This document shows, one piece after another, positions 5,804 through 50,213 of a DNA stretch of 64,000 nucleotides. The notes below the pieces were generated by a model. The model had not been told where the DNA came from. It worked only from the letters and a program-made list of their open reading frames with translations, and did not search any database. Both the position numbers and the translations under genes were made by a program. This DNA is from Catenulispora pinistramenti. GTDB lineage: Bacteria; Actinomycetota; Actinomycetes; Streptomycetales; Catenulisporaceae. Position 1 is the stretch's first letter; each line of letters opens with the position of its first letter. The stretch covers positions 1 to 64,000 of the forward strand of contig NZ_JAAFYZ010000022.1 of the NCBI RefSeq assembly GCF_018274385.1, written 5' to 3'.

Positions 5804-7030
5804 TCAGTGCTTCGAGGTCTTCGAGGTGTTTGAGGTGTTCGAGGCTTTCGATGTCTTGGCCGCGCCGCAGAACGCCGGGCTCAGCGCTGCCCGCAAAGCT
5901 GCGAAGACGTTGTTGTTGTTCGACACGTTCGCCGAGATCGTCACCTGCCGGCTGCCGTCCTTGGTCGAGTACGCGTACGTCTCGTAGCCCTCGACGATGC
6001 CGTCGTGCCCGTAGACGTCCACGCCGCACGGCAGCTTGTACTCGCGCATCCCCAACCCGTAGAGCGAGGCCCCGGTGGAGTCGACCGGGGTGGTGGCCTC
6101 CATCTCCGCGAGTTCCTGCGGCGGCAGGACGTGGCCGGTGGTCAGGGCCCGCAGATACTTGTCCAGGTCACCGGTGCTGGAGATGGCGGCGCCGGCGGCC
6201 CAGATCCAGGATCCGGTCTGGGCGGTGGCGTCGGACAGGGCCTTGGCCGGGTCGTCCTGGGTGAGGTAGCCGACCGCGTGCGGGCCGGAGATCCCGGTGT
6301 CGGGCACCACGAAGCTGGTCTGTTCCAGGCCGAGCGGCTGGATGAGCTCCCGGTTCAGCAGGTCGGCGTACTTCGTGCCGGTGACGTGTTCGAGCAGCAG
6401 GCCCAGGACGACGAAGTTGGTGTTCGAGTACTCGTAGGACGTACCGGCGCGGAAGTCCGGACCGTGCTTGACCGCCATCGCCACCAGCGCGGCCGGGTCG
6501 TAGGTCTGGTAGCGGAATCGCTGGTAGGTGCGGACGGTGTCGCCGGCGATCAGGGCATTGCTGTAGTCGTGCAGCCCGCTGCGGTGGTCGAGCAGGTCCC
6601 GGACGGTGATCGTCGAGCCGGCCGGCAGCAGTCCGGCGGGCAGGTAGTCGGTCGCCGGGGCGTCCAGGCGTACCCGGCCCGCGGCGACCAGCTTGAGCAC
6701 CATGACCGCGGTGAAGCTCTTCGTGATGCTGCCGATCCGGAAGCGGCCCCGCGGATCCACGGACGTCTTGGCCGAGATGTCGCCGAGCCCGACGGAGACG
6801 GTGGTCGGCGTGACGTGGCCGTTCGCCGAGTCCTCGATCCGCGCGAAGACCCCCGGCGCACCGTCCGCGACCACCCTGTCCAGGGCCGATCGCAGGCTCT
6901 CGGCATCCGATCCGCCGGTCCAGGACCGCGAATCCATCGCCTGGGCGCTGCCGGCGCTACACAACGTGGCGCCGAGCAGGCCGGTGACCACGGCGACGAT
7001 GATCTTGTGCCGGGTGCCAAGCCGCGTCAT
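5804..7030 (-). CDS. Serine DD-peptidase / beta-lactamase-like carboxypeptidase
   Basis: Secreted serine hydrolase of 408 residues resembling the Streptomyces R61 D-Ala-D-Ala carboxypeptidase. A Sec signal peptide ends at AQA near residue 31. The catalytic SxxK tetrad is SITK, the YxN motif is YSN, and the third motif is HDG. The start is ATG 7030; the frame stays open to 7360 but the extension has no ribosome site and would bury the signal peptide. The last 15 residues are a Thr/Ser/Lys microrepeat. It lies 134 bp downstream of the second XRE-cupin gene. Confidence 0.88.
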   Translation of the reverse strand: MTRLGTRHKIIVAVVTGLLGATLCSAGSAQAMDSRSWTGGSDAESLRSALDRVVADGAPGVFARIEDSANGHVTPTTVSVGLGDISAKTSVDPRGRFRIGSITKSFTAVMVLKLVAAGRVRLDAPATDYLPAGLLPAGSTITVRDLLDHRSGLHDYSNALIAGDTVRTYQRFRYQTYDPAALVAMAVKHGPDFRAGTSYEYSNTNFVVLGLLLEHVTGTKYADLLNRELIQPLGLEQTSFVVPDTGISGPHAVGYLTQDDPAKALSDATAQTGSWIWAAGAAISSTGDLDKYLRALTTGHVLPPQELAEMEATTPVDSTGASLYGLGMREYKLPCGVDVYGHDGIVEGYETYAYSTKDGSRQVTISANVSNNNNVFAALRAALSPAFCGAAKTSKASNTSNTSKTSKH

Positions 7031-7836: not shown

Positions 7837-8541
7837 ATGCAGCCGCACTTCGATACCGCCACTGATGCTGACACCGCCACTGACACTGGCTCGGCTACTG
7901 ACACTGATTCGGCTACTGACACTGACTCGGCGACCTTCTGGGAGGGCTTCTACTCCCGCGCCGACCCGCGCTGGGGCACCAGACCGAACGTCGTGCTCGA
8001 AGGCCTGGTGACCGCCTTCGCCCGGACCCCGGGCACGGCGCTGGACCTGGGTTGCGGCCACGGCGGCGACGCGATCTGGCTGGCCGGGAACGGCTGGGAC
8101 GTCACCGCGGCCGACGTGGCCCAGACCGCCCTGGACCGGGTCGCCGAGAGCGCGTGGGCGGCCAGCCTGGCCGGGCGGGTCCATCCGGTGCGCCACGATC
8201 TGGCCGAGAGCTTTCCCGAGGGGGAGTTCGACCTGGTCAGCGCCACCTACTTCCAGACCCCCATCGAGATCCCGCGCACCGAGGTGCTGCGCCGGGCCGC
8301 GCGAGCGGTGGCGCCGGACGGGCTGCTGATCGTGGTGGAGCACGCCTCGGTGCCGCCGTGGTCGTGGCAGGCGGGTCAGGACATCCGGTTCCCGACGCCC
8401 GCAGAGGTGCTGGCCTCGCTGGAACTCGGCGCGGGCTGGCGGGTCGAGCGGTGTGACGCGCCCGAACGCGAGGCCGCCGGGCCCGAGGGACAGACCGCGA
8501 TGGTCGTCGAGAACGTCATCGTGGTGCGGCGGGTCGGCTGA
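7837..8541 (+). CDS. Class I SAM-dependent methyltransferase
   Basis: Protein of 234 residues with a Rossmann methyltransferase fold of the Methyltransf_25/TehB type. Motif I is LDLGCGHGGDA near residues 69-79 and the acidic loop is TAADVA. Residues 8-31 are four copies of a six-residue Ala-Thr-Asp-rich repeat, encoded by an 18-bp DNA repeat, and sit outside the catalytic domain. It is divergent from the second XRE-cupin regulator, its likely controller. The substrate is unknown. Confidence 0.87.
   Translation: MQPHFDTATDADTATDTGSATDTDSATDTDSATFWEGFYSRADPRWGTRPNVVLEGLVTAFARTPGTALDLGCGHGGDAIWLAGNGWDVTAADVAQTALDRVAESAWAASLAGRVHPVRHDLAESFPEGEFDLVSATYFQTPIEIPRTEVLRRAARAVAPDGLLIVVEHASVPPWSWQAGQDIRFPTPAEVLASLELGAGWRVERCDAPEREAAGPEGQTAMVVENVIVVRRVG
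7858..7929 (+). repeat. 18-bp in-frame tandem repeat, 4 units
   Basis: Units of the type GCCACTGACACTGGCTCG occur four times in frame in the methyltransferase gene and encode Ala-Thr-Asp repeats at the N-terminus. Copy number could vary without breaking the frame. Confidence 0.8.
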
Positions 8542-10798: not shown

Positions 10799-12797
10799 CC
10801 TGACGGTTCAGGCCCTTGTCCCAGCCGCCCACGCCGAACGCGAGGTCGGCGGTGGCGGAAAGTGCCTTGTCGGAGACCACGGACGTGCCGCCGAACACCG
10901 CGATGCCGCCGAGCCCGGGAGTCCCCAGGACGCTCGCCTCCTGCGGGGTCAGGCCGTTGGGACCGGACAGCAGCAGCGGTCCGTGCTGCAGCCCGATCAG
11001 CGCGCCGCCGGACAGCGCGTCGGGCCAGTTCGCGGCGGTCGCGACGCCGACCTCGTGGAGCGTGGGGCCGAACACCGAGTGCGTGGCGACCAGGTAGGCG
11101 GTCTCGTAGCGGTTGGCGCCGGCCAGCGGCGTGGTCCGGCCCTTCCACTGCGGGAACGCCTTGGCCACCGCGGTGGTCGCCGGGCCGCCGACCGTGTAGA
11201 TGTGGGTCGTGGCCGGGTTGAGCGTGGCCAGGTAGGCCTGGGTCCACGGCAGTAGGGCCGAGCCGTCCGAGAGCATCACGACGCCGGTGCCGTCCGGGTC
11301 CTGGGCCGCCGCCGCGCCCGCGGTCAGGGCGTCGGGGTAGTCGACGCCGGTGGCGACGAACACCGAGTGCGGAGCGGCGCTCGGGACCAGGTGGCCGCCG
11401 ACGTTGCTGTAGCCGGTGATCTGGTCGGCGATGGCCTGCGCGGTGCCGTAACGGTCGTCGGCGTAAGCCTTGCCGTCGCCGGCCAGCCGCACCGGCGTGA
11501 AGCCCAACGCGCCGACTTGGGTGTCGATCTCGTCGCTCAGCGCCCTGGTCCCGCCCAGGATGTAGACGTTCGCGCCGCGCGGCAGGATCCGGGTCAGCTC
11601 GGCCTGCACCCGCGGGTCCAGCGAGGTGGTGCCGGTCATGAACAGCGGGCCGTCTTTCTCGGCGGCCAGCGCGTTGCCCGCGAGCGCGTCGGCAGCCAGG
11701 TCCGAGCGGGTGATGACGGCGCTGGCCGCCTGCCGGCCGCCGGTGCCGACGGCGTCGAATGACCACTGCGAGGCCCGGACCGAGGTGTCGACGCGGTCCG
11801 CGCCGCCGATCCGGTCGGCCACCGGCCGGGCCGGGGCGGTGCTCGCGCCGGTCTGCCAGCCGGCCTCGAAGGAGGCGTCGGGGTCGGCCTGGGTGCTGAG
11901 CGGGACCAGCGGTGAGTTCGCCTTGGCGGCGACCTTGTTCAGGACGCCGAGTTGGCCCCCGGAACCGTTGGCCTTGGTGGTCCAGGCGAGCAGGCTCTTG
12001 CCGTCCGGGGACCAGGTGATCGCGCCGCCCAAGGTCGTGGAGCTGATCTGGATCTTGACACCGCCGGCGGCCGGGGTGATGAACAAACCGCTGTCCGGGC
12101 CGAAGCTGTACGCGGTGTAGGCGATCCAGTTGCCGTCAGGGGAGAAGGCCAGGGACCGCGGCCGGAAGGCCAGATTGCGCAGAGTGGTCGCACCGGGGTC
12201 GAGGGCCACGGCCGTGGGCATCGATGTGCCGGCGCACTGCTCGGCGAACACGACGCGCCCGTTCGGAGCCACCGTCGGCGAGGTCGACCAGCAGTTCGCC
12301 TGTCCGGGCAGCTCGGCCAGGCCCGACCCGTCCGTGCCGACGACATCGATCTTGCCGGCGGTGCTCGGGCTGGTCAGCACGAAGTAGATCTTCTTGCCGT
12401 CAGGCGACCAGGCCAGCTGGCCCACGCCGGTCTGCCCGCCGAGAACGCGGCGCGCGTTCGCCCCGGACGCGTCGGCGATCCACAGTTCGCCGCTCGCCGG
12501 AGTGTTGTTTGCAGCCGGCACCGTCACCGCGAACGCGACCTTGGTGCCGTCCGCCGAATAGACGACCTGCGTGACGTGGCCGTCGCCGGTGTACCCGCCG
12601 CCGGTCGGCGTGACCGTCTGGACGTTGGAGCCGTCGGCGTCGGACTGGCTCCAGCCGGCGGTGTTCGTGGGCCAGGCGATGTGGCCGTTGACGTGGGCGG
12701 CGGCCGCCTGAGCGGCCGTCGACGGCAGCGCGATGGCCCCGGCGGCCGCGGCGAGCACGCCGACCGAGGCCAGCACGCGGGATGCGCGTCGGGACAT
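10782..12797 (-). CDS. Secreted beta-propeller plus CW_binding_2 repeat protein (paralogue)
   Basis: Exported protein of 671 residues with the same order as its downstream neighbour: signal peptide to AQA near residue 36, propeller blades with YSADG, WSPDGKK and FSPDGNW, then three CW_binding_2 repeats (RIGGADR, RLAGDGK, LAGANRYET). The start is ATG 12795-12797 with AGGAGGGGG upstream; the frame to 12884 adds residues before the signal peptide. The pair looks like a tandem duplication that has diverged widely. It sits beside an LCP ligase, consistent with envelope work. Confidence 0.88.
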   Translation of the reverse strand: MSRRASRVLASVGVLAAAAGAIALPSTAAQAAAAHVNGHIAWPTNTAGWSQSDADGSNVQTVTPTGGGYTGDGHVTQVVYSADGTKVAFAVTVPAANNTPASGELWIADASGANARRVLGGQTGVGQLAWSPDGKKIYFVLTSPSTAGKIDVVGTDGSGLAELPGQANCWSTSPTVAPNGRVVFAEQCAGTSMPTAVALDPGATTLRNLAFRPRSLAFSPDGNWIAYTAYSFGPDSGLFITPAAGGVKIQISSTTLGGAITWSPDGKSLLAWTTKANGSGGQLGVLNKVAAKANSPLVPLSTQADPDASFEAGWQTGASTAPARPVADRIGGADRVDTSVRASQWSFDAVGTGGRQAASAVITRSDLAADALAGNALAAEKDGPLFMTGTTSLDPRVQAELTRILPRGANVYILGGTRALSDEIDTQVGALGFTPVRLAGDGKAYADDRYGTAQAIADQITGYSNVGGHLVPSAAPHSVFVATGVDYPDALTAGAAAAQDPDGTGVVMLSDGSALLPWTQAYLATLNPATTHIYTVGGPATTAVAKAFPQWKGRTTPLAGANRYETAYLVATHSVFGPTLHEVGVATAANWPDALSGGALIGLQHGPLLLSGPNGLTPQEASVLGTPGLGGIAVFGGTSVVSDKALSATADLAFGVGGWDKGLNRQAPALK

Positions 12798-46347: not shown

Positions 46348-47574
46348 CTACACGGCGGGAGAGTCCCGCAGCTTCTTCGCCCGAGACTCCAAGTAGCGCT
46401 GCTCAGCCATACTCGCGGTCGCCTTGGCAGCGTTCCGATAGTTCTCATACGCGCCGTCCGAATCCCCGGCCATCTCCAGCAGATGTGCCCGCACCGACAA
46501 CAGCCGGTGGTGCTTGGCCATCCGCTCGTCCGCGTCCAACGCCGCCAGCACGGCGAGCCCGGCCTGCGGCCCTTCGAGCTCGGCGAGCGCGACGGCGCGG
46601 TTCAACGTGACCATCGGGTTCGGCGCGATGCGTTCCAGGATCAGGTACAGCGCGTGGATCTGCTTCCAGTCGGTGTCCGCGGCGTCCGTGGCGACGGCGT
46701 GCGTAGCGGCTATCGCCGCCTGCAGTTGGTACGGCCCCAGCTCCGTCCCGCCCAGCGAACTCTTCGCCAGCTCCAGCCCTTCGGCGATCAGGCCGGCGTC
46801 CCAACTGGCCCGGTCCTGCTCCTCCAGCGGCACCAGATCGCCGCTCGCGGTCGTCCGGGCCTCGCGCCGGGAGTGGGTGAGCAGCATCAGCGCCAGCAGC
46901 CCGGTCACCTCGCCGTCGGCCGGCAGTTGCGCGTGCACCATCCTGGTCAGCCGGATCGCCTCGGTCGCGAGGTCCACGCGGTCCAGATCCTCGCCGGAGG
47001 AGGCCGTGTAGCCCTCGTTGAAGATCAGGTACAGCACGTGCAGCACGACCCGCAGCCGCTCCTCGCGCTCGGGGCCCTCGGGCAGCTCGAACGAGCTCCC
47101 GGCGGCCTTGATGCGCTGCTTGGCGCGGCTGATCCGGGCCGCCAGCGTGGCCTCGGGCACCAGGAACGCGCGGGCGATCTCGGCGGTGGTCAGGCCGCCG
47201 ACGGCGCGCAGCGTCAGCGCGGTCTGGGAGGCCGCGGTCAGCGTCGGGTGGCAGCACAGGAACAGCAGGACCAGGGTGTCGTCGGTGTCCGGGACCTCCT
47301 CCGGCGGCACCTCGGCGGCGAAGACCTGCTCCTCCCGGTCGCGCCGGGCGGAATCGCTGCGGACCTGGTCGATGAGCCGGCGGGAGGCGACGGTGGCCAG
47401 CCAGCCGCGCGGATTGGCCGGCACGCCCTCGGCCGGCCACTGCACGCTGGCCGCCAGGACCGCCTCCTGCACGGCGTCCTCGCAGCCTTCGAACGTTCCG
47501 TACCTGCGGACCAGCGCACCGAGGACCTGCGGGGTGAGCTCACGGAGCAGGTCCTCGATCGCCGATGCCGTCAT
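46348..47574 (-). CDS. RNA polymerase sigma factor, ECF42 group
   Basis: ECF sigma factor of 408 residues with the long TPR-like C-terminal extension (about 190-408) that marks group ECF42. Sigma-2 is at about 10-80 (CEDAVQEAVLAA) and sigma-4 at about 110-165. The start is ATG 47574, overlapping the stop of the YCII gene (ATGA), so the two are co-translated. ECF42 factors are known to sit with DGPF/YCII proteins, as here. A group-type promoter precedes the pair, and a mirror copy precedes the divergent MFS gene. Confidence 0.92.
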   Translation of the reverse strand: MTASAIEDLLRELTPQVLGALVRRYGTFEGCEDAVQEAVLAASVQWPAEGVPANPRGWLATVASRRLIDQVRSDSARRDREEQVFAAEVPPEEVPDTDDTLVLLFLCCHPTLTAASQTALTLRAVGGLTTAEIARAFLVPEATLAARISRAKQRIKAAGSSFELPEGPEREERLRVVLHVLYLIFNEGYTASSGEDLDRVDLATEAIRLTRMVHAQLPADGEVTGLLALMLLTHSRREARTTASGDLVPLEEQDRASWDAGLIAEGLELAKSSLGGTELGPYQLQAAIAATHAVATDAADTDWKQIHALYLILERIAPNPMVTLNRAVALAELEGPQAGLAVLAALDADERMAKHHRLLSVRAHLLEMAGDSDGAYENYRNAAKATASMAEQRYLESRAKKLRDSPAV

Positions 47575-47942
47575 GCCTCCAATTGTCCATCGGAGAACAT
47601 GACCTGGCGCACCTCGACGCCCAAACCGTCGATGGCGGCGTCCGGAATCTGCGCCGCCAGCTCCAGCGCGCGCGCCTTGTCCTCGACGTCGATCAGGTAG
47701 AAGCCGCCCAGGTACTCCTTCGCCTCCAGGAACGGACCGTCGGTCACCACCGGCTGGCTGTTGCGGATCCGCACCACGGCCGCCTGCGACGGGTCGACCA
47801 GAGCCTGGGTCAGGATCAGTTCCCCGCGGTCCTTCAGGTTCTGGATGAACTTGCCGTGGCCCTCGCCGATCGCCGCCTTCTCGTCATCGGTCAGCGCGTC
47901 GAGCACGGCGGGGTTGATGTGCATGCTGATCACGAACTTCAT
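47571..47942 (-). CDS. YCII/DGPF-domain protein, ECF42 partner
   Basis: Small protein of 123 residues with the DGPF motif (VTDGPFLEAKEYLGG) that names the family. The fold is a dimeric ferredoxin-like alpha/beta. The start is ATG 47942 with GAGGAG upstream. Its stop overlaps the ECF42 start. DGPF proteins are the usual targets of ECF42 factors; the enzymatic or sensor role is not settled. Confidence 0.92.
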   Translation of the reverse strand: MKFVISMHINPAVLDALTDDEKAAIGEGHGKFIQNLKDRGELILTQALVDPSQAAVVRIRNSQPVVTDGPFLEAKEYLGGFYLIDVEDKARALELAAQIPDAAIDGLGVEVRQVMFSDGQLEA

Positions 47943-47993
47943 CTCGTCACTCCTCGTGTCGCGGGGCGCCCGGCGGGGCCCTGTCACCTGGTG

Positions 47994-48113
47994 GTCGGAG
48001 CCGCTGCGGCGTCCTTGACATCCTGGCCGACATCTTGGCCCGAAATTTTTTCCGCGGCCTGTTCTGGAAGATTCTCGGCGCGGCGGTGTCAAGGATCGGC
48101 AACCGGCTCCGAC
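47994..48113. promoter_or_regulatory. Divergent ECF42-type promoter pair
   Basis: Minus strand: TGTCAA (48020-48015), 17 bp, CGAC (47997-47994), leading to the YCII-ECF42 pair. Plus strand: TGTCAA (48087-48092), 17 bp, CGAC (48110-48113), leading to the MFS gene. Both share GGA after the -35 box and GGCTC before the -10 box. The known ECF42 consensus, from memory, is TGTCGA with CG(A/T)C. Confidence 0.8.
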
Positions 48114-48157
48114 TGCCCGGTGACACGTCGAGAGAGGTCGAGAGAAGGAGTACGGCG

Positions 48158-49717
48158 ATGCGAACGAACCGGGCTTGGTGGGGACTGGTCCTGCTGATGC
48201 TGCCGACCCTGCTGGTCGCGATGGACATGACGGCGCTGATCCTGGCGCTGCCGCACCTGAGCGCCGACCTCGGTGCCGGCCCCGTGCAGCAGCTGTGGAT
48301 CAGCGACAGTTACGGACTGACGGTCGCCGGGATGGTCATCACGATGGGCACGCTCGGCGACCGGATCGGCCGCCGCCGGCTGTTGCTGATCGGGGCGTCG
48401 GCGTTCGCGGTGCTCTCGGTGGTCGCGGCGTTCTCGGTGAATCCGCTGATGCTGATCATCGTGCGGGCGCTGCTCGGGGTCGCCGGGGCCACCCTGGCGC
48501 CGTCCACGCTGGCGCTGATCACCAACATGTTCGGCGAGGACCGCTCCCGCGGCCGCGCCATCGCGATCTGGGCCACGTGCCAGTTCACCGGGGGAGCGGT
48601 CGGTCCGGTGCTGGCCGGGTTCCTGCTTCAGCACTTCTGGTGGGGTTCGGTGTTCTTGGCCGCGGTGCCGGCGATGCTGGTGCTCGTGCTGGCAGGTCCG
48701 TTCGTACTGCCGGAGTACCGGGGTTCGCAGGCCGGGAAGCTGGACCCGCTGAGCGTCGCGCTCTCGCTGTCCGCCGTGCTGCTGATGGTCTACGGAATCA
48801 AGCAGCTGACGGTGGCGCACGCGGTGACCGTTCCGATCGCGGCGCTGATCGTCGGGGCGGCGATCGGCACGGTATTCGTGCGCCGCCAGTTCCGGCTGAC
48901 CACGCCGCTGCTGGACCTGCGCCTGTTCCGCAGCCGTCCGTTCACCGCGGTCCTGATCGCGCTGGTCTTCGCCGGCCTGGCGATGGCCGGGGTCGGGCTG
49001 CTGGTGACGCAGTACCTGCAAGGCGTGCTCGGGCACTCGCCGATGGCGGCCGCGGCCCTGTTCGCCCCGATGGGCCTGGGTGTGGCCGTCGGCACCATGT
49101 CCGCTCCGATGCTGAGCCGCCGCCTCCGGCAGCCGACCGCCATCGCCGGCGGCCTGGCGATCTCCGCCCTCGGCGCCCTGTCGCTGGTCGCCGTGCACGG
49201 CCCCGGCAGCCTGCCGCTCCTGATGGCCGGCATCGCGGTCCTGGCCTTCGGCGCCGGCCCGCTGTTCGCCCTCGGCACCGGACTGGTGATCGGCAGCGTC
49301 CCGCCGGAGCGCGCCGGCAGCGCCGCCTCGATGTCCGAGACCGGCAACTACTTCGGCGGCTCCCTGGGCCTGGGCCTGCTCGGCGCGGTCGCCGCCGTCG
49401 TCTACCGGGCCCACGCGCACGGCAGCTCCGACTCGCTGGCCGCCGCGCTCGCCGCGAGCGGTCACCAGAGCGCCGGTCAGGCCGTCGCGACGCTGGACAC
49501 GGCCCGCGCGGCCTTCACCGCGGGCGTGCACGTGACCGGCGTCATCGCCGCCGTGGTCTTCGCCGCGCTGGCGGTGCTGGTGCTGGCGATGCGGTCGACC
49601 GGGACGGCGACGGCTTCGGCGTCGGTCTCGGCGACGGCCGCATCGGCCGCTCAGCAGCCGGCGGCGCAGGTCGGATCTGCTATCACCGAACCGGTCCTCC
49701 AGGAAATGACTGTCTGA
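48158..49717 (+). CDS. MFS transporter, DHA2 family, in the ECF42 regulon
   Basis: Exporter of 519 residues, 14 TM. TM1 motif is LLVAMDMTALILALPHL, motif A is GTLGDRIGRRR near residue 65, and a motif C-like GGAVGPVLAG lies near residue 150. The tail is a Thr/Ser/Ala-rich stretch. The start is ATG 48158 with AAGGAG upstream; the frame extends to 48035 but that would begin before the promoter. It shares a promoter type with the divergent YCII-ECF42 operon, so it is a likely direct target. The substrate is unknown. Confidence 0.9.
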   Translation: MRTNRAWWGLVLLMLPTLLVAMDMTALILALPHLSADLGAGPVQQLWISDSYGLTVAGMVITMGTLGDRIGRRRLLLIGASAFAVLSVVAAFSVNPLMLIIVRALLGVAGATLAPSTLALITNMFGEDRSRGRAIAIWATCQFTGGAVGPVLAGFLLQHFWWGSVFLAAVPAMLVLVLAGPFVLPEYRGSQAGKLDPLSVALSLSAVLLMVYGIKQLTVAHAVTVPIAALIVGAAIGTVFVRRQFRLTTPLLDLRLFRSRPFTAVLIALVFAGLAMAGVGLLVTQYLQGVLGHSPMAAAALFAPMGLGVAVGTMSAPMLSRRLRQPTAIAGGLAISALGALSLVAVHGPGSLPLLMAGIAVLAFGAGPLFALGTGLVIGSVPPERAGSAASMSETGNYFGGSLGLGLLGAVAAVVYRAHAHGSSDSLAAALAASGHQSAGQAVATLDTARAAFTAGVHVTGVIAAVVFAALAVLVLAMRSTGTATASASVSATAASAAQQPAAQVGSAITEPVLQEMTV

Positions 49718-49973: not shown

Positions 49974-50213
49974 ATGAGCATGCGCAAGACCATCGTGGCC
50001 GCCGCCATGGCAGCGTTCGCGGTCGTGGGCTTCGCCGGCACGGCCTCCGCGTCCGGTGCCGGTGCCATCGGCGGCGCGATCGGTTCGCCGGGCCTGCTGT
50101 CCGGCAACAACATCCAGGTGCCGGTCAACATCCCGATCAACGTCTGCGGCGACAACGTGGGCATCCTGTCGGCTCTGCTCGGCAGCGCCGGCAACGTCTG
50201 CGTCAACCGCTGA
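49974..50213 (+). CDS. Short chaplin
   Basis: Secreted amyloid-forming surface protein of 79 residues that coats aerial hyphae in sporulating actinomycetes. The Sec signal ends at ASA near residue 26. A single chaplin domain follows with the SGNNIQVPVNIPINVCG core and paired cysteines (NVCGDN and NVCVN). Being short with no sorting signal, it belongs to the small chaplin class. The start is ATG 49974 with AGGGAG upstream. A perfect terminator follows. Confidence 0.92.
   Translation: MSMRKTIVAAAMAAFAVVGFAGTASASGAGAIGGAIGSPGLLSGNNIQVPVNIPINVCGDNVGILSALLGSAGNVCVNR

Follow-up and report, generated by a model that had tools for sequence, protein, structure and literature searches.

A putative ECF42 regulon with back-to-back promoters for a YCII-sigma factor operon and a divergent DHA2-type exporter in Catenulispora

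Introduction

Sigma factors of the ECF42 group are widespread, but little is known of what they sense and what they control. In Streptomyces venezuelae their targets are reportedly the DGPF genes, and the promoter box is said to be of the TGTCGA type. A literature search (with the primary ECF42 papers lying outside its reach) turned up no report of an MFS exporter under ECF42 control, and a text search of PMC3817407 gave no mention of ECF42. According to the accessible portions of PMC8999054 and PMC6180224, the described members (Sven_0747, Sven_4377 and Sven_7131 of Streptomyces venezuelae, ECF-10 of Pseudomonas putida and RpoE10 of Sinorhizobium meliloti) have the sigma2-sigma4 core, long C-terminal extension, YCII neighbour and TGTC...CG[AT]C-type box that we also find in the factor described here. 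The targets of RpoE10 given in the accessible part of PMC6180224 are hypothetical, glyoxalase-like and hydrophobic-ligand-binding proteins, with no exporter named there; in comparison with that system, the locus analysed here has TGTCAA as its -35 element and a divergent DHA2 exporter that shares the box.

Results and Discussion

Gene content and promoter architecture

The window (i.e. the whole stretch of 64,000 nucleotides that was analysed) derives from a member of Catenulispora. Its minus strand encodes an ECF42-group sigma factor of 408 aa (46348..47574), in which regions 2 and 4 of the ECF core (Pfam Sigma70_r2 and Sigma70_r4_2) both score above the Pfam cut-off, and which continues for approximately 250 residues beyond sigma4 (the group being marked by an extension of about 200 residues), with DUF6596 at residues 173-273. 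A Pfam search of the extension at sequence level gave zero TPR matches at E 0.001. As is characteristic of the ECF42 group, the sigma gene adjoins a gene for a YCII-domain protein (123 aa, 47571..47942, minus strand; PF03795, E 8e-16), and since the stop codon of the latter and the start codon of the former share 4 nt (ATGA, from the coordinates), the two genes are probably translationally coupled. As ten DUF6596-type (ECF42-like) sigma factors are present in the genome, the local one included, the identity of 'the sigma factor' spoken of in the first-pass annotation had to be argued for.

The divergent gene (48158..49717, plus strand) encodes a protein of 519 aa that family models and PDB homology assign to the DHA2-type MFS exporters. 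It belongs to the MFS over its full length (MFS_1, E 1e-47) and is homologous, likewise over its full length, to the drug:H+ antiporters QepA, LfrA, QacA, EmrB and EfpA, but it lies far under the curated cut-offs of the named families (QepA and EmrB type): the closest NCBIfam models, QepA (E 5e-106) and LfrA (E 1e-98), are both matched below cut-off (355 bits against 1075 in the case of QepA), and the EmrB-type DHA2 permease model (TIGR00711) is matched with 169.7 bits against a cut-off of 230.2. The closest PDB chains (E 1e-65) are named 'Antiseptic resistance protein', which we take to be QacA. A crude hydropathy scan gave no resolved helix number for comparison with the 14 of DHA2 proteins.

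The intergenic region holds two exact TGTCAA-N17-CGAC sites, each predicted as an ECF42-type promoter with TGTCAAGGA as the -35 element and GGCTCCGAC as the -10 region: one on the minus strand (47994..48020), directed to the YCII-sigma operon, with 51 nt from the end of the site to the YCII ATG, and one on the plus strand (48087..48113), directed to the MFS gene, with 44-45 nt to its ATG. The positions and directions proposed by the first-pass annotation agree with the gene calls and coordinates, as do the shared spacer ends GGA and GGCTC (spacers GGACGCCGCAGCGGCTC and GGATCGGCAACCGGCTC); its assertion that the motif occurs once on each strand holds for the YCII-MFS intergenic region and fails for the window, where a third exact match stands at 12034-12060(-), devoid of the GCTCCGAC end and probably due to chance. 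The -35 hexamers face each other across a gap of 66 bp (48021..48086), the equivalent of which ranges from 8 to 116 bp in relatives, so that, judged by its length, the gap is not one fixed operator. A consensus scan of 47900-48200 found no sigma70-type promoter.

Additional elements were seen around the two sites: between both promoters (48025-48040), a plus-strand hairpin that, with its T run, resembles a terminator, a GC-rich inverted repeat in the YCII leader, and a GTGA/GCGA-like element approximately 6-8 nt past the -10 region (47943-47993 and 48114-48157 in the window), which relatives share on both sides and which is also seen at many distant ECF42 operons.

Specificity of the motif

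Although the bare TGTCAA-N17-CGAC pattern is enriched in the window (3 found versus 0.09 expected by chance), genome-wide (11.46 Mb) it yields 7 matches versus 7 in the reversed control, and with one mismatch 247 versus 277; it was therefore rejected as evidence and, taken alone, weighs little. The extended form TGTCAAG-N13-CTCCGAC, on the other hand, occurs in the whole genome at the two twin sites only (control 0), so that the genome scan suggested by the first-pass annotation bears out the extended motif and not the bare one. Searched without gene information in 394 genomes, the extended motif gave 19 sites in 14 genomes, 15 at such a locus and 4 elsewhere, against 4 matches of its reversed control; a one-base-longer pattern gave 7 matches, none of them at such a locus. 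A wider regulon was sought with two mismatches in ten Catenulispora genomes, where the overall matches did not exceed controls, and we claim no further targets from it. One of the four sites elsewhere is an exact extended match in genome G332 (L174:1501-1527, plus strand), approximately 58 nt 5' of a gene whose product, judged by eye, resembles an alpha/beta hydrolase; this gene could also be under the control of the same sigma factor.

Conservation of the mirrored site

Orthologues of the sigma factor are found in all ten Catenulispora genomes searched (79-100% identity) and, at 77-83% identity, in named genomes of Streptomyces, Nonomuraea, Planotetraspora, Actinoallomurus, Kitasatospora, Streptacidiphilus and Actinoplanes, after which identities drop to 67% and below. 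Twenty-three distinct orthologous loci were compared, i.e. the 26 examined minus L042 and L050 (printed sequences identical to L071 and L084) and L086 (a truncated locus without YCII). The exporter side was scanned with a matrix derived solely from the YCII-side sites and scored against 1000 dinucleotide shuffles per locus. All 17 loci with an MFS gene or MFS remnant carry the exporter-side site, which in each case beats 1000/1000 shuffles, and none of the six without MFS does (p 0.09 to 0.94). Each site keeps one orientation and stands, where the gene is intact, about 35-67 nt from its own start codon.

The mirror site is imperfect in several Catenulispora genomes (G009 and G008 CGTCAAG, G003 CGTCAAA, G007 CGTCGAG, G004 TGTTAAG); two of these genomes, G003 and G007, retain no more than a deletion remnant of the MFS gene, with a promoter that has decayed further than those of their congeners. 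S. violens also has a broken MFS gene, but an intact mirror site.

The same pattern is seen in a sample of 394 genomes from the class of the host (which overlaps the set of 23 loci). The YCII orthologue is present in 12 of these, the genome of the window included; the mirror site is present in every one of the seven with an adjacent MFS gene (15-16 of 16 positions) and absent from the five without such a gene (8-10 of 16 positions), one of which (L208) keeps a truncated mirror. Relatives that share the gene order thus carry the motif, whose absence from them the first-pass annotation had named as an outcome that would speak against its interpretation. The exact motif occurs in 11 of the 12 YCII genomes and in three genomes devoid of YCII (Fisher p 6e-18, kinship ignored), the latter having no sigma factor above 67% identity. 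When both locus sets are joined (33 distinct loci, with the window, L203, and L210, identical to L080, counted once), ten keep the YCII-sigma pair without an adjacent MFS gene, which indicates that the exporter is not an obligatory partner.

Covariation of the -35 element with sigma residue 146

The box TGTC..GA...GCTCCGAC is common to other ECF42 operons, distant ones included, the -35 elements of which mostly read TGTCGA or TGTCCG. The twin sites fit this promoter box with A for G at base 5 of the -35 element; relative to the wider ECF42 box TGTCGA (TGTCGAGA...GCTCCGAC), TGTCAA is the derived form. In a tree of 60 loci (L042, L050 and loci with bases 5-6 other than AA, GA or CG left out), the operons with TGTCAA correspond to a single, fully supported sigma clade. 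The other ECF42 operons of the window's own genome either carry TGTCGA, not TGTCAA (L003, L004, L008, L009 and L010), or have no clear site.

We compared the sigma alignment with the -35 element in those 66 of 119 loci that have a clear site, chosen without use of bases 5-6. Residue 146 was the most informative of 299 columns (0.90, the next 0.62): Q accompanies GA in 29/29 loci, A or V accompanies AA in 25/25 and R accompanies CG in 10/10, the two other loci being GG/Q and CA/K. From its position in the Pfam region, residue 146 would belong to the recognition helix predicted for region 4.2, which reads the -35 element. Among 16 further sigma loci, six have a site that scores 11 of 13 or better, and all of these follow the same rule; one belongs to the same clade, and in one the site lies at an unusually large distance upstream. 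The rule breaks at 2 of 77 loci under a looser site threshold (GA/R and CG/Q) and in distant paralogues (L004, L008 and L010 of the own genome, plus L252, with A146 and TGTCGAT-type sites), and of the four concordant residue/base changes on the tree there is only one independent GA/CG pair on starred (well-supported) branches. We regard as evenly balanced the proposition that residue 146 sets bases 5-6 of the -35 element in ECF42 factors (Q for GA, A/V for AA, R for CG) and thereby keeps some ten paralogues apart, with targets being handed between paralogues by base changes. Such a link would make target assignment among many ECF42 paralogues checkable by point mutation.

Exporter orthologues away from the sigma factor

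Orthologues of the MFS protein at about 73% identity or more are present in nine of the 394 genomes (the own included), and all nine have an ECF42-type site (12-13 of 13) 36-45 nt upstream of the gene. Seven adjoin the YCII-sigma pair and have sites that read AA. The remaining two, G268 and G324, keep the exporter without an A-type sigma factor; their MFS promoters read TGTCGAG and TGTCATG respectively, and their best sigma factors (67% and 64% identical to that of the window) both have Q at position 146. This is what a change of the controlling sigma factor would look like, two cases being few; if the reading of residue 146 holds, an exporter with a TGTCGA promoter in a genome without an A-type sigma would be a hand-over. 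Among 21 MFS relatives at 44-54% identity no site exceeded 11 of 13, and the best of these boxes before distant DHA2 relatives (11 of 13) were taken as chance. The nine genomes without an intact adjacent MFS gene have no orthologue at the 73% level elsewhere (closest relatives 43-54%), and two of seven newly scanned loci have box-like sites approximately 100 nt upstream. At L121 and L126, two distant ECF42 loci where the divergent MFS gene has 28-30% identity, the candidate mirror sites were unconvincing (best 12 of 15 and 9 of 15) and were set aside.

Proposed regulon and alternative explanations

We consider it highly probable that one ECF42-group sigma factor drives both its own YCII-sigma operon and the divergent DHA2 exporter from back-to-back promoters. 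The tie between exporter and sigma factor put forward in the first-pass annotation is supported by the sequence itself, by conservation of the sites on both sides, by the co-occurrence of the mirror site with the exporter gene, by the specificity of the extended motif, and by the covariation of the -35 element with the sigma clade. We infer that both sites are functional promoters read by the local sigma factor (from the TGTCAA variant of the -35 element together with the sigma4.2 residue), that positive feedback operates and that efflux is the physiological output. Under this model, the product of the YCII-sigma operon would recognise two promoters of the class TGTCAAGA-N11-GCTCCGAC, of which one would fire the operon itself, in a positive feedback, and the other the DHA2-type exporter; sigma activity, and with it the exporter level, would increase in response to a signal probably sensed via the C-terminal extension of the sigma factor, the YCII protein or both, with removal of a toxic compound by the exporter as the result. 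Control through the C-terminal extension and YCII has been proposed for the ECF42 group in a review (accessible part of PMC8999054). Feedback cannot be assumed, since overexpression of RpoE10 in S. meliloti did not raise its own YCII gene (accessible part of PMC6180224). A conserved, nearly self-contained two-promoter regulon with a drug-type exporter would provide a concrete compound-efflux hypothesis and a simple reporter system.

The principal alternative is that the promoters are of the ECF42 type and that a paralogous ECF42 sigma factor of the same cell drives the exporter. The ten DUF6596 sigma factors of the genome make this conceivable, and the ECF42-type MFS promoter (TGTCGA) kept by G268 without an A-type sigma indicates that another sigma factor can apparently serve; as the own-genome paralogue operons with a recognised site read TGTCGA, however, and TGTCAA tracks the clade of the local sigma factor, we hold this explanation to be improbable. 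It is more improbable still that the paired elements are two halves of an operator bound by a regulatory protein, or a conserved leader sequence, instead of sigma factor promoters: they are mutually inverted and their similarity extends slightly beyond the -10 region on both sides, as such a reading would have it, but their distance varies from 8 to 116 bp across relatives, their orientation and spacing to the own start codons of intact genes are constrained, the same box stands singly at other ECF42 operons, and no regulator gene lies between them. As to a chance match of a short motif, the equality of the bare pattern with its reversed control is outweighed by conservation at 17/17 and 7/7 loci and by the extended motif, and we assign it a negligible probability. 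Of these readings we retain control of both transcription units by the local sigma factor.

Related loci

Exporters near ECF42 sigma factors of other clades were found in two further cases, both of which differ from the window in having no twin divergent pair with a YCII-sigma operon. In Salinispora cortesiana (L140), an MFS protein of 56% identity is encoded near a Q-type ECF42 sigma factor, with an ECF42-like box upstream; TGTCGAG boxes at 6924-6950 (-) and 8164-8190 (-) stand 5' of this MFS gene and of a reductase-like gene. In Catenulispora G003 (L215/L216), an MFS homologue of 52-53% identity lies near an R-type ECF42 sigma factor, likewise with an ECF42-like box upstream; its site reads TGTCGG and that of the sigma factor's own operon TGTCCG. 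Along contig C26 of this genome (1-26000), four ECF42-like boxes (637+, 1271+, 10774+ and 21626-) are located 5' of two YCII genes (one of them before an ECF42 sigma gene), an oxidoreductase-like gene and a DHA2-like MFS gene, which could amount to another and larger ECF42 regulon that includes an exporter.

Lastly, a gene for a small secreted protein of approximately 79 aa (49974-50213, plus strand), presumably chaplin-like, lies 3' of the MFS gene in the window and is retained beside the MFS remnants in G003 and G007.
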